Both the position numbers and the translations under genes were made by a program. A DNA stretch of 64,000 nt from assembly GCA_902793635.1 (NCBI GenBank), contig CADBEA010000004.1, forward strand, positions 1-64,000, read 5' to 3'. The notes below the pieces were generated by a model. It was not told the DNA's origin, ran no database searches, and saw nothing but the letters and a program-made list of their open reading frames with translations. Origin of the DNA: an uncultured Erysipelotrichaceae bacterium. GTDB taxonomy: Bacteria; Bacillota_I; Bacilli_A; Erysipelotrichales; Erysipelotrichaceae. Positions 11,478 through 29,863 of the stretch are shown here, one piece after another; the first letter of the stretch is position 1; every line of letters starts with the position of its first letter.

Positions 11478-11795
11478 TCAATGCCAGGTGTATGGGAACA
11501 TCTGTTCGTCAAAGTCACCGTCTTCGTGGATTTTTACGAGACCCATCTGGTTCAGTTCCGGATACAGGTTTACCTAAGATCCGCAGCTTGTGCAGATGCA
11601 GCTGTCCACAGCGATCCTTGTGCCGTCAGCATAGCCTTTGTAACCCTGAAGCTGCGAGCGCAGTGTTCCTTCCGCACCGCAGGCCGGACATTTGATTTTG
11701 GCTGCCCGCACCGCCATATCATATTCGACGCTGAAATTAAAGCGGCCGCCGGCGACCTGCTTTATTTCTTCTTCGTTCAGTTCATCTGATTTCAC
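11478..11795 (-). pseudogene. Double-glycine-leader zinc-ribbon protein interrupted by an in-frame TAG
   Basis: Starting from the GTG at 11795, 73 codons precede an amber codon at 11574-11576. They encode a bacteriocin-type leader (ELNEEEIKQVAGG) and a four-cysteine core: CPAC near 36-39 and ICTSC near 67-71. After the TAG the same frame continues for 31 codons (VNLYPELNQMGLVKIHEDGD onward) to a TGA at 11478. This continuation aligns with the C-terminus of the intact homologue at 29532-29840 (VALFPEQQQMCLVDKMGEF). The truncation is therefore recent, read through, or recoded. The start is also odd: an ATG with a GAGG site at about 11811 is one base out of frame across a run of six A. It lies 34 bases after the 11830-12132 gene. 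Confidence 0.7.
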
Positions 11796-11829
11796 TCTTT
11801 TTTACTGCCATTTTTTCCTCTTCTGTTTT

Positions 11830-12132
11830 TCAGGCTCCGTATTTATCAATCAGAAAATTCATTATCTCTTCATGTGTCATTATATTGACACCAAGATTTT
11901 TCACAAAATACGTTGTCGGGCCGTTGTGATCTCCCGGCTGGCAGGAACCGTCATATTCAGGAATATTCATATACAGCCAGCGGACAACACTGCCGTCGCC
12001 GATCGTGGAAGGATCTCTGTCTGCCCATTCGGGATTGTGGCGGACCGCCCATGCCTTAAGTTCATCCCATTCGGCATCATAACCGCCACTGACAGCATTC
12101 AGTTCCTCTTCATGAAGTTTTCTATTGTCCAT
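11830..12132 (-). CDS. Small secreted-type protein with double-glycine leader, unknown core
   Basis: 100 residues. The N-terminus LHEEELNAVSGG is a class II bacteriocin-type leader (L-x-x-x-E-L-x-x-V-x-GG) that would be cut after residue 17. The remaining 83 residues have a single Cys, several Trp and a net negative charge, and end in a helical-looking stretch (THEEIMNFLIDKYGA). They do not resemble a known bacteriocin. Ribosome site AAAAGGAG precedes the ATG. It leads a two-gene minus-strand unit with the interrupted zinc-ribbon gene. No ABC transporter with a C39 peptidase or modification enzyme is seen nearby, so export and role are open. Confidence 0.65.
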   Translation of the reverse strand: MDNRKLHEEELNAVSGGYDAEWDELKAWAVRHNPEWADRDPSTIGDGSVVRWLYMNIPEYDGSCQPGDHNGPTTYFVKNLGVNIMTHEEIMNFLIDKYGA

Positions 12133-27732: not shown

Positions 27733-27766
27733 GGCAGTGCCGCTCATCGGCGGTACTGCCTATTTT
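27733..27766 (+). terminator. Terminator of rnj, its T-tract shared with the IS target duplication
   Basis: GGCAGTGCCGC-N6-GCGGTACTGCC followed by TATTTT. The last eight bases CCTATTTT are the target copied on insertion of the adjacent element. Confidence 0.85.
27759..27766. repeat. Left copy of the 8-bp target-site duplication CCTATTTT
   Basis: Identical to 29454-29461 on the other side of the element. Confidence 0.85.
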
Positions 27767-27790
27767 AGGACCATAAACAACTTTGTTGTA

Positions 27791-27890
27791 TGGATGACCT
27801 GTAAACAGTTTGTGTTTATAGGGTGGCTGTCAAACTTGTGTTGACAGTCTTTTATTATTGTGTGGATGACCTATAAACGTTGTGTGTTTC
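27791..27890 (+). repeat. Left-end subterminal repeats of the IS
   Basis: Three related motifs: CTGTAAACAGTTTGTGTT (27799), CTGTCAAACTTGTGTTGAC (27828) and CTATAAACGTTGTGTGTT (27871). The first and third are preceded by TGGATGAC. The middle one also forms a CTGTCAA/TTGACAG hairpin followed by T-rich sequence. Confidence 0.65.
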
Positions 27891-27958
27891 AACCCAGAAA
27901 AAAAACTCCTGTCTTACAATGGTTCTACCACAAGCCACTGAAGAAAGGAGCGACTTAA

Positions 27959-29257
27959 TTGTCTATAGAAAAGTTTATCACGGATACACTCAATATCGAT
28001 CCTAATACGATCGATTCCATTGAATCTATTCGTTCTACTGATGAGTCAGTAGCTGTTCGTATCAAGCTAAAACCTGATCCTGATCCCAAATGCCCTTACT
28101 GCGGCACTCAATTGGTCTGTAATGGTTTTTACAACAAGAAGCTCATTCATTCTATTCTCATCAACAGGCCTTGTACTGTCTTCTTCGCCAGGAGGAGATA
28201 TATCTGCCGGCATTGTGAATGCACTTTTTCTGAGTCGAACCGTTTTGCCGGCAAAGGAGAAAATGTGACTTATGAGACAAAGATCAATGTTTTAAAAGAT
28301 CTTAAAGAGCCGTCAATGACTTATACATCAACAGCACGCAGAAACAACCTCTCTACCACTAAAGTGCTGCAGATCTTTGACAAGCATGTCTCCATCTCCA
28401 GGAAACCTTTGCCGGAAGTTCTGGCGATCGATGAGCACTACTTCCCGGCATCCGATTTCGATTCACTTTATATATGTGTCCTCATGGATTTCAAAGATGG
28501 CACGATCATTGATATCCTTCCTGACAGGAAGAAAGATTATCTGATCTCCTACTTCGGGAATATCAGAAACGAAACCTTGAACAAGAAGAATGGTAGAAGT
28601 GAATTGTCTAATGTCAAATATGTCTCTATCGATCTATATGACACGTACAAAGACATTGCCCGGACATATTTCAGAAAAGCCATTATCTGTGCAGACAGCT
28701 TCCATGTCATAGAACATCTTACTAAAGGTTTTCGTGCCGTCCGTCTGCGCTGCCGCAGAAACACACAGGACGAAGACTTACAATACCTCCTGACCAAATT
28801 CAAATACATATTTGATCATGATCACTTTCTTGATAATGAGCCTAAATACAACAAACGCTTTAAAAGATACATGAATTACAGAGACATGATGAATATCCTG
28901 TTTGAGCGCTTTCCCGATTTAAAGAAAGCATATTATCTGAAAGAATCATATCTCCTCTTCAATGAGACCTGTACTCTGAAAGATGCACCGGAAAGACTGG
29001 CTGATCAGATCGGTGCCTTTGCGGACTCCGGCATCGATGAATACATTGAGTTCTATAACCTGCTTATCAACTGGTCCCAGGAAATCATCAACTCATTCAC
29101 AGTTGTTTACTCCCGTCGCATAAACAACAGTTACATCGAATCCAGAAACAGGCAGATAGAGAGCCTTTTCTTTAACGCCAATGGATTTACAAATTTCCAC
29201 AGGACCCGCACCAGGATCCTGTACTGCCTCAACAAGAAAGACACCTACAAAATCTGA
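27959..29257 (+). CDS. ISL3-family transposase
   Basis: 432 residues. An N-terminal zinc finger (CPYCGTQL at about 43-50 and CRHCECTF at about 82-89) is followed by a helix-turn-helix-like region. The DDE domain begins with VLAIDEHYF near residue 157; the second Asp lies in ICADSFHVIEHL near 243 and the C-terminal Glu in NNSYIESRNRQIE near 400. The start is TTG with AAAGGAG eight bases upstream. Full length, so the element could be active. Codon use is more A+T-rich than the host genes around it. Confidence 0.93.
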   Translation: MSIEKFITDTLNIDPNTIDSIESIRSTDESVAVRIKLKPDPDPKCPYCGTQLVCNGFYNKKLIHSILINRPCTVFFARRRYICRHCECTFSESNRFAGKGENVTYETKINVLKDLKEPSMTYTSTARRNNLSTTKVLQIFDKHVSISRKPLPEVLAIDEHYFPASDFDSLYICVLMDFKDGTIIDILPDRKKDYLISYFGNIRNETLNKKNGRSELSNVKYVSIDLYDTYKDIARTYFRKAIICADSFHVIEHLTKGFRAVRLRCRRNTQDEDLQYLLTKFKYIFDHDHFLDNEPKYNKRFKRYMNYRDMMNILFERFPDLKKAYYLKESYLLFNETCTLKDAPERLADQIGAFADSGIDEYIEFYNLLINWSQEIINSFTVVYSRRINNSYIESRNRQIESLFFNANGFTNFHRTRTRILYCLNKKDTYKI

Positions 29258-29268
29258 ATAATACAAAA

Positions 29269-29326
29269 GACCAGTGGCTGGGTACAGAAGGCGCGTTTAG
29301 CGCTTTTTCTGTTTCAACCACTGGTC
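29269..29326. terminator. Long hairpin after the transposase gene
   Basis: GACCAGTGG / CCACTGGTC form the outer stem, with inner ACAGAA...TTCTGT and CGC...GCG pairing, 11 bases after the transposase stop. It probably terminates or insulates transcription through the element. Confidence 0.65.
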
Positions 29327-29363
29327 CATTTGGTTCCTAAATAAACATTTCGTTTAGAGTCTG

Positions 29364-29434
29364 TCAACACTATGTTTACAGCACATCAACATATTGTGTA
29401 CAGGTCGATCAACACAGTGTTTACAGCTCATCCA
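29364..29434 (-). repeat. Right-end subterminal repeats of the IS
   Basis: Three direct copies at about 22-23 base spacing (29364, 29386, 29409) of TCAACA-N3-TGT-TACAG. Read on the minus strand they match the left-end CTGTAAACA motif; the outermost also carries TGGATGA. Confidence 0.65.
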
Positions 29435-29453
29435 CACGTTTTTTTACGAACCC

Positions 29454-29531: not shown

Positions 29532-29840
29532 TCAGAATACTGCCGGGAACATTTCATCCTGGAACTCGCCCATTTTATCGACAAGACACATCTGCTGCTG
29601 TTCCGGGAACAGGGCGACAAAAGCGCCGCAGTTGGAACAGATCATATGGTCTACAGCAACCTTTCTTCCGTCAGAGTAGCCTTCCCATATATGACCTACC
29701 GAGTTCAGCGTGCCGGTCGCATGGCATGCCGGGCATTCCAGATTAGCATTGATTATTCTTATTTCGTATTCTGTATCGAATGTGAAAGCTCCGCCGGTTA
29801 CTTTTTCAATATCTTTCATTGTCAGTTTTTTTTCTTCCAT
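29532..29840 (-). CDS. Double-glycine-leader zinc-ribbon protein, intact
   Basis: 102 residues from the ATG at 29840, chosen because AAGGT lies seven bases upstream; ATG 29855 is in frame and sits just after a TATAAT box. The leader is KKLTMKDIEKVTGG, cut expected after Gly17. The core has CPAC near 36-39 and CSNC near 68-71, a zinc-ribbon pattern, with the conserved link WEGYSDGRKVAVD. It then ends in an acidic tail (GEFQDEMFP). It aligns along its whole length with the interrupted gene at 11478-11795, including the part behind that gene's stop. Role unknown: could be an exported peptide or an intracellular zinc protein with a leader-like N-terminus. Confidence 0.75.
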   Translation of the reverse strand: MEEKKLTMKDIEKVTGGAFTFDTEYEIRIINANLECPACHATGTLNSVGHIWEGYSDGRKVAVDHMICSNCGAFVALFPEQQQMCLVDKMGEFQDEMFPAVF

Positions 29841-29863
29841 TTTTCTTACCTTCATGACAGATC

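Follow-up and report, generated by a model that had tools for sequence, protein, structure and literature searches.

The window, by which we mean the whole analysed stretch of 64,000 nucleotides, belongs to contig C4 of the source genome and contains gene A, its decayed homologue copy B and gene D, while a further relative, gene C, resides on contig C47. These genes are situated among housekeeping genes. The following features are relevant:

29532..29840, reverse strand: gene A, intact, 102 aa, encoding a predicted precursor of leader plus zinc ribbon, ATG at 29840
29790..29840, reverse strand: double-glycine leader of gene A, MEEKKLTMKDIEKVTGG, 17 aa, with L-12, I-7, V-4, G-2 and G-1 and predicted cleavage after GG
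29535..29789, reverse strand: core of gene A, 85 aa, predicted four-cysteine zinc ribbon
29733-29735, 29724-29726, 29637-29639 and 29628-29630, reverse strand: cysteine codons of gene A
27766..29448, forward strand: insertion sequence adjoining gene A, with a transposase ORF at 27959-29257
11478..11811, reverse strand: copy B, decayed homologue of gene A, with the ATG at 11811 out of frame, an in-frame TAG at 11574-11576 and the original stop codon at 11478-11480
11830..12132, reverse strand: gene D, leader protein of 100 aa with an alpha/beta core unrelated to that of gene A
12082-12132, reverse strand: leader of gene D, MDNRKLHEEELNAVSGG, with L-12, L-7, V-4 and GG

For gene A, the ATG at 29840 is preferred as the start over an in-frame ATG at 29855 because AAGG is located upstream of the former and the orthologues in genomes G156 and G188 begin there; no ribosome-binding site is present at the upstream codon. 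The G188 orthologue shows no amino-acid difference but two synonymous changes, and comparison with the G156 orthologue yields a dN/dS of 0.33, both identifying gene A as a real gene. With dN/dS values of 0.14-0.34 in the selection tests, purifying selection is evident. The insertion sequence ends about 80 bp past the stop codon of gene A, its transposase contains a zinc ribbon and its ends carry several imperfect inverted repeats. In G188 the same site is empty.

The core of gene A features the motifs CPAC...CSNC, i.e. two conserved CxxC knuckles, and in an alignment of five relatives all four cysteines, G-x-x-DG and A-x-D are invariant. The best-fitting description is a zinc ribbon, although the score against the YgiT-type finger model TIGR03831 (E 0.0012, 19.0 bits) stays below the cut-off of 20.2 and no Pfam zinc-ribbon model exceeds its curated cut-off. 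The AF2 model is a beta ribbon of mean pLDDT 69, which over residues 39-86 resembles the zinc ribbons of NrdR (Z 3.3-4.0, rmsd 2.2-2.4 over 44-45 residues), whereas Foldseek returned no match for the models of genes A and D in the PDB at E<=0.001. The conserved cysteines and the modelled ribbon thus suggest that the core binds zinc.

The sequence-only reading of the window had postulated two homologous proteins that join a leader to a zinc ribbon. This is correct for gene A, while the second one (11574-11795) is broken by a frameshift and a TAG codon. In copy B, the ATG at 11811 is out of register by a single base, leaving GTG at 11795 as the sole in-frame start, and replacement of CAG by TAG at 11574-11576 removes the conserved C-terminal end PELNQMG...MFPYTWH. 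Reassignment of TAG was considered and rejected: TAG, TGA and TAA all terminate long frames (3, 30 and 18 of 51, respectively), and leader genes are interrupted in frame by stops of more than one kind, at sites occupied by Q, W, R or C in relatives. Decay of copies is a repeated event, since G188 lost copy B independently through a deletion that took its leader together with gene D and through other stops. An intact relative is encoded by gene C on contig C47 (111 aa, 40% identical to gene A). In G156, the orthologues of gene D, of the C/B gene and of gene A are arranged in tandem and adjoin the same neighbour gene that flanks gene A. Gene D had been described as sharing only the leader with gene A, and its unrelated core bears this out.

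The leaders of genes A and D combine hydrophobic residues at -12, -7 and -4 with GG, the pattern of C39 substrates. In an NCBIfam scan at E<=10, TIGR03793 (NHLP leader) matched neither A, B nor D. TIGR03798 (Nif11 leader) remains unmatched in the source genome at E<=0.01 and is above cut-off in G160, G167 and G177. Among class II bacteriocin models, copy B scored 14.3 against cut-offs of 27.1 (PF10439) and 21.5 (TIGR03949), and A and D gave no match. The layout had been called non-standard for a bacteriocin, and indeed no bacteriocin model reaches its cut-off.

The source genome encodes exactly one C39 domain. It lies within an operon on contig C30, in which the gene for a short HlyD-like protein is followed by those for TIGR03796 (ABC1) and TIGR03797 (ABC2) proteins. 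The ABC subunits exceed the curated equivalog cut-offs (936.2 vs 853.3 and 717.9 vs 709.4, respectively), while the short HlyD partner stays under that of TIGR03794 (23.8 vs 156.2). Judged by these assignments, the operon encodes an NHLM exporter. The closest solved relative of the peptidase is LahT150 (6MPZ; E 2e-72), with 107 of 146 residues identical (73%), and the catalytic set Gln20, Cys26, His100 and Asp116 (aligned-domain numbering) is conserved. The idea that the leader proteins are substrates of a C39-type transporter encoded elsewhere has consequently withstood the refuting condition set for it: the transporter is present with its catalytic residues intact, and all intact homologues keep the GG motif. 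A homologue without leader was not found, decayed copies excepted. Substrate genes usually, though not necessarily, adjoin their exporter. In the source genome the exporter adjoins none of genes A, B, D and C; in G146 a gene for a leader-bearing zinc ribbon is located next to an NHLM-like exporter. G146 also encodes an NHLM ABC1 paralogue (C43; L037 1438-3621) whose peptidase domain lacks the catalytic cysteine (ENG for ECG) and histidine. Similar paralogues are found at L038, L039, L040 and L175, with leader genes adjoining in G146 and G155, and possibly serve as recruiting C39-like domains.

Exporter and leaders co-occur across the genus, which belongs to the Erysipelotrichaceae. ABC1 is above cut-off in 14 of 60 genomes, and leader matches at E<=0.02 are present in 13 of these compared with 3 of the 46 others (Fisher's p=1.4e-9, a value that ignores kinship and overstates independence). 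The three exceptions among the exporter-negative genomes are G155, which has a 167-aa C39 fragment and a paralogue, G172, which is 70% complete and contains an ABC2-like frame, and G176 with one marginal match (0.0104) and no C39. In G160, the exporter is present and the best leader match has an E value of 0.024. The B-type subunit of a type II topoisomerase from exporter-positive genomes is 99% to 74% identical to that of the source genome, with negatives interleaved, and a tree built from 30 of these genomes requires just three changes of exporter state. The association is hence not that of a single clade.

The leader profile comprises 21 columns and was applied with a lax (E<=10) and a strict threshold (E<=0.02), yielding 17 and eight candidates in the source genome, respectively. 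As the same profile finds nothing at the strict threshold in 44 of the 60 genomes, the signal is beyond chance. Genus-wide, we collected 107 distinct leader proteins with a median leader of 18 and a median core of 69 residues. L, I or V occupies position -12 in all 107, L, M, I or V position -7 in 103, V, I or A position -4 in 106, G-2 is present in 107 and G-1 in 105, counts that are partly circular because the proteins were retrieved by the leader profile. At the level of sequence this is the same rule as that measured for LahT (PMC6363468) and PCAT1 (PMC6959990).

The cores behind this one leader type are diverse: they include several zinc-ribbon families, 4Fe-4S ferredoxins, a thioredoxin, a paralogue of IF-1 and others, with at least two CxxC motifs in 25 of the 107 and no cysteine in 30. 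The system is therefore wider than the sequence-only reading saw, zinc ribbons being one of many core types, and zinc-ribbon cores of differing sequence recur across many genomes of the set. On contig C10 of the source genome, two leader-bearing 2x[4Fe-4S] ferredoxins are encoded in tandem (21.4-22.0 kb; L008 7420-8060). In the second, an in-frame TGA takes a cluster-cysteine position and GD replaces GG; selenocysteine is unlikely here, since ordinary nonsense changes occur in other leader genes, too. A thioredoxin core with a WCGPC active site (PF00085, 5e-16) follows a GG leader in G177:C284 (L108 1488-1868). In G148 (C63, 60.1 kb; L049/L210 1557-1835), a leader-bearing IF-1 scores over the infA equivalog cut-off (67.5 vs 61.15) and is encoded 10 kb from the normal infA. 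Members of another family of the class (G347, G355, G508) contain zinc ribbons behind Nif11-like leaders that stay below the TIGR03798 cut-off; four such genes reside within 9 kb of the exporter in G347. Since zinc ribbons follow leaders of two types, and a single leader type precedes many cores, leaders and cores recombine; this answers in the affirmative the question, raised at the outset, of whether the two vary independently.

Some further arrangements were noted. Leader proteins from G156 (L091, L094, L095, L098, L099, L100) and from contig C37 of the source genome (L075) carry the repeated motif CAATVExGSxC...DAC, followed in some of them by a zinc ribbon. Leader proteins of G167 and G156 (L114, L096, L115) harbour an additional Nif11-like leader in their interior, which terminates in GG. 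In G347 and G508 (L170 1320-2717; L172 7824-9218), a radical SAM/SPASM protein is encoded between the exporter and a short Nif11-like peptide.

The zinc-ribbon family of gene A itself is narrow in distribution. Clear copies of the core occur in 3 of 70 genomes of the genus (the source genome, designated G000, G188 and G156), and the genus-wide core search gave scraps in G162 and G208. Among named genomes, the core alone matched Solobacterium sp. RGIG2362 from goat ileum, which is G188, and Erysipelotrichaceae bacterium RUG12361, while a search with a three-sequence family returned the source genome as sole match among 146 genomes. A contig profile search with the full-length alignment, in which the patterns fell in the leader, was without match; the core alone found close relatives and nothing else. 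The family was absent from phages and plasmids, and in IMG/VR two weak 26-residue matches, which were disregarded, were the sole result.

Taken together, we consider it likely that the NHLM exporter acts in trans, processing and exporting small folded proteins whose genes are dispersed and turn over fast. Precursors of such proteins would be encoded by genes A and D and, prior to its decay, by B. An N-terminal leader of 17-22 aa would dock in helical form onto the C39 domain of the ABC1/ABC2/HlyD exporter encoded on C30 and be cut after GG, and the core of roughly 9.5 kDa would be moved across the membrane. Cleavage and export of the cores are read from the known relatives. LahT accepts many leaders and cores and needs Leu-12, Leu-7 and Val-4 in the last 13 leader residues (PMC6363468), and PCAT1 reads its cargo via the leader only and provides a cavity of about 15,000 cubic angstroms (PMC6959990). 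The mature core of gene A (computed as ~9.5 kDa and about 11,700 cubic angstroms) is smaller, which we count in favour of export. The cryo-EM map of PCAT1 shows no structure for the cargo, so that metal sites would need to form outside or to survive transport. An exporter that recognises the tag and not the cargo would leave cores free to be swapped, duplicated and lost.

Once exported, the cores would most likely interact or compete with other gut microbes, considering how diverse and patchy the cargo set is and how quickly it is lost. In the anaerobic habitat, metal sites may confer the stability otherwise provided by disulfides. With more reserve, and rather doubting than believing it, we put forward that in this lineage the bacteriocin-type leader is a general export tag that can be moved freely onto duplicates of housekeeping-type folds (zinc ribbon, 4Fe-4S ferredoxin, thioredoxin, IF-1), such that folded metal/redox proteins and decoys encoded throughout the genome leave the cell via one NHLM exporter, possibly into competitors.

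Several other explanations have to be weighed. The proteins could belong with class II-like bacteriocins or be RiPP precursors, their cysteines carrying modifications or forming disulfides instead of binding zinc. Leader and exporter are of that kind, the NHLM family has been linked to RiPPs (PMC2887384), a radical SAM/SPASM gene adjoins the exporter in relatives of another family and other cores of the set are rich in cysteine without being ribbons. Still, we regard this as rather unlikely: in the source genome, the surroundings of the exporter and of A, B, C and D showed no modification enzyme, cysteines spaced as CPxC...CxxC typify a metal site, and bacteriocin models stay under their cut-offs. 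Plain bacteriocins are further disfavoured by the lack of an immunity gene evident upon inspection of the gene neighbourhood and by the ordinary folds of the ferredoxin, thioredoxin and IF-1 cores. As to location, the main alternative is that the proteins, once exported, stay at the envelope and form a coat with a structural or redox function. This has been proposed for MAM of Faecalibacterium, a protein that comes with a neighbouring PCAT, bears a V-4/GG leader and exceeds all other envelope proteins of a gut anaerobe in abundance (PMC12184118). Ferredoxin and thioredoxin cores would fit redox roles; many differing cores and their frequent decay are unlike a single structural lattice, making a coat an unlikely explanation.

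Secreted signals or metal-scavenging peptides, for which the export of quorum-signalling peptides by C39 exporters could be cited (PMC6363468), appear very unlikely. Conserved, acidic folded cores of 85 aa do not resemble short pheromones, one structural zinc site per 9.5 kDa makes a poor scavenger and neither a receptor nor an uptake gene is evident beside the genes. It is more improbable still that we are dealing with intracellular zinc-ribbon regulators like YgiT or NrdR, whose leader-like N-terminus arose by chance or reflects common descent of one domain. The near-threshold YgiT-type finger score, the resemblance to NrdR ribbons and the position among housekeeping genes agree with this, as does the fact that export is only predicted. 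Yet the same leader precedes cores that are no zinc ribbons, tracks the exporter across the genus and keeps its recognition positions, and leaderless homologues are restricted to decayed copies.

C39/NHLM exporters are currently read as machines for bacteriocins, pheromones or RiPPs. If export of the small folded proteins in trans proves true, small genes of housekeeping-like appearance that encode a GG leader represent an overlooked secretome in gut anaerobes, and annotation of GG-leader proteins as intracellular enzymes or regulators is wrong. The host group comprises gut bacteria related to Solobacterium that encode dozens of tagged small folded proteins, whose export we infer from genomes. 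A testable question is raised, namely whether a peptidase-containing ABC exporter delivers folded or metal-binding proteins and what their role outside the cell is, and natural core swapping offers ready-made cargo sets for one exporter.

Exporter and leader are of known kinds. A limited literature search retrieved no description of zinc ribbons, ferredoxin, thioredoxin or IF-1 preceded by a GG leader, which is weak evidence for the novelty of the cargo set. The nearest system is LahT AMS/PCAT with nine LahA precursors from Lachnospiraceae C6A11 (PMC6363468). It shares a C39 domain with 73% identity and the same catalytic residues, double-glycine leaders with Leu-12, Leu-7 and Val-4, and many cores behind a conserved leader. 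The LahA leaders, however, are of the Nif11 type and belong to one lanthipeptide cluster, whereas here leaders are short, genes scattered and cores predicted folded domains, and no synthetase was seen. NHLP/Nif11 systems with TIGR03796/03797/03794 exporters (PMC2887384) feature the same exporter equivalogs, and one system exports multiple precursors with hypervariable cores. In contrast, no TIGR03798 leader was found in the source genome and the cores are not short modified peptides; ferredoxin and thioredoxin are not mentioned in that work. MAM of Faecalibacterium duncaniae and its PCAT (PMC12184118) are likewise from a gut anaerobe and combine cargo of protein size with a canonical PCAT leader, yet with one dominant cargo encoded beside its PCAT instead of many at a distance. 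EbfG1-4 and PteB from Synechococcus elongatus (PMC4997328) likewise involve small GG-motif proteins, and secretion of EbfG, which serves biofilm formation, needs the C39 cysteine. These are four biofilm proteins from one operon, for which metal-binding or housekeeping folds have not been described. Finally, experiments with the microcin V exporter (PMC10231218) show export of very different sequences, limited by length. In that case the cargos were engineered and the bacteria Gram-negative, while the mixture encountered here appears to be natural.
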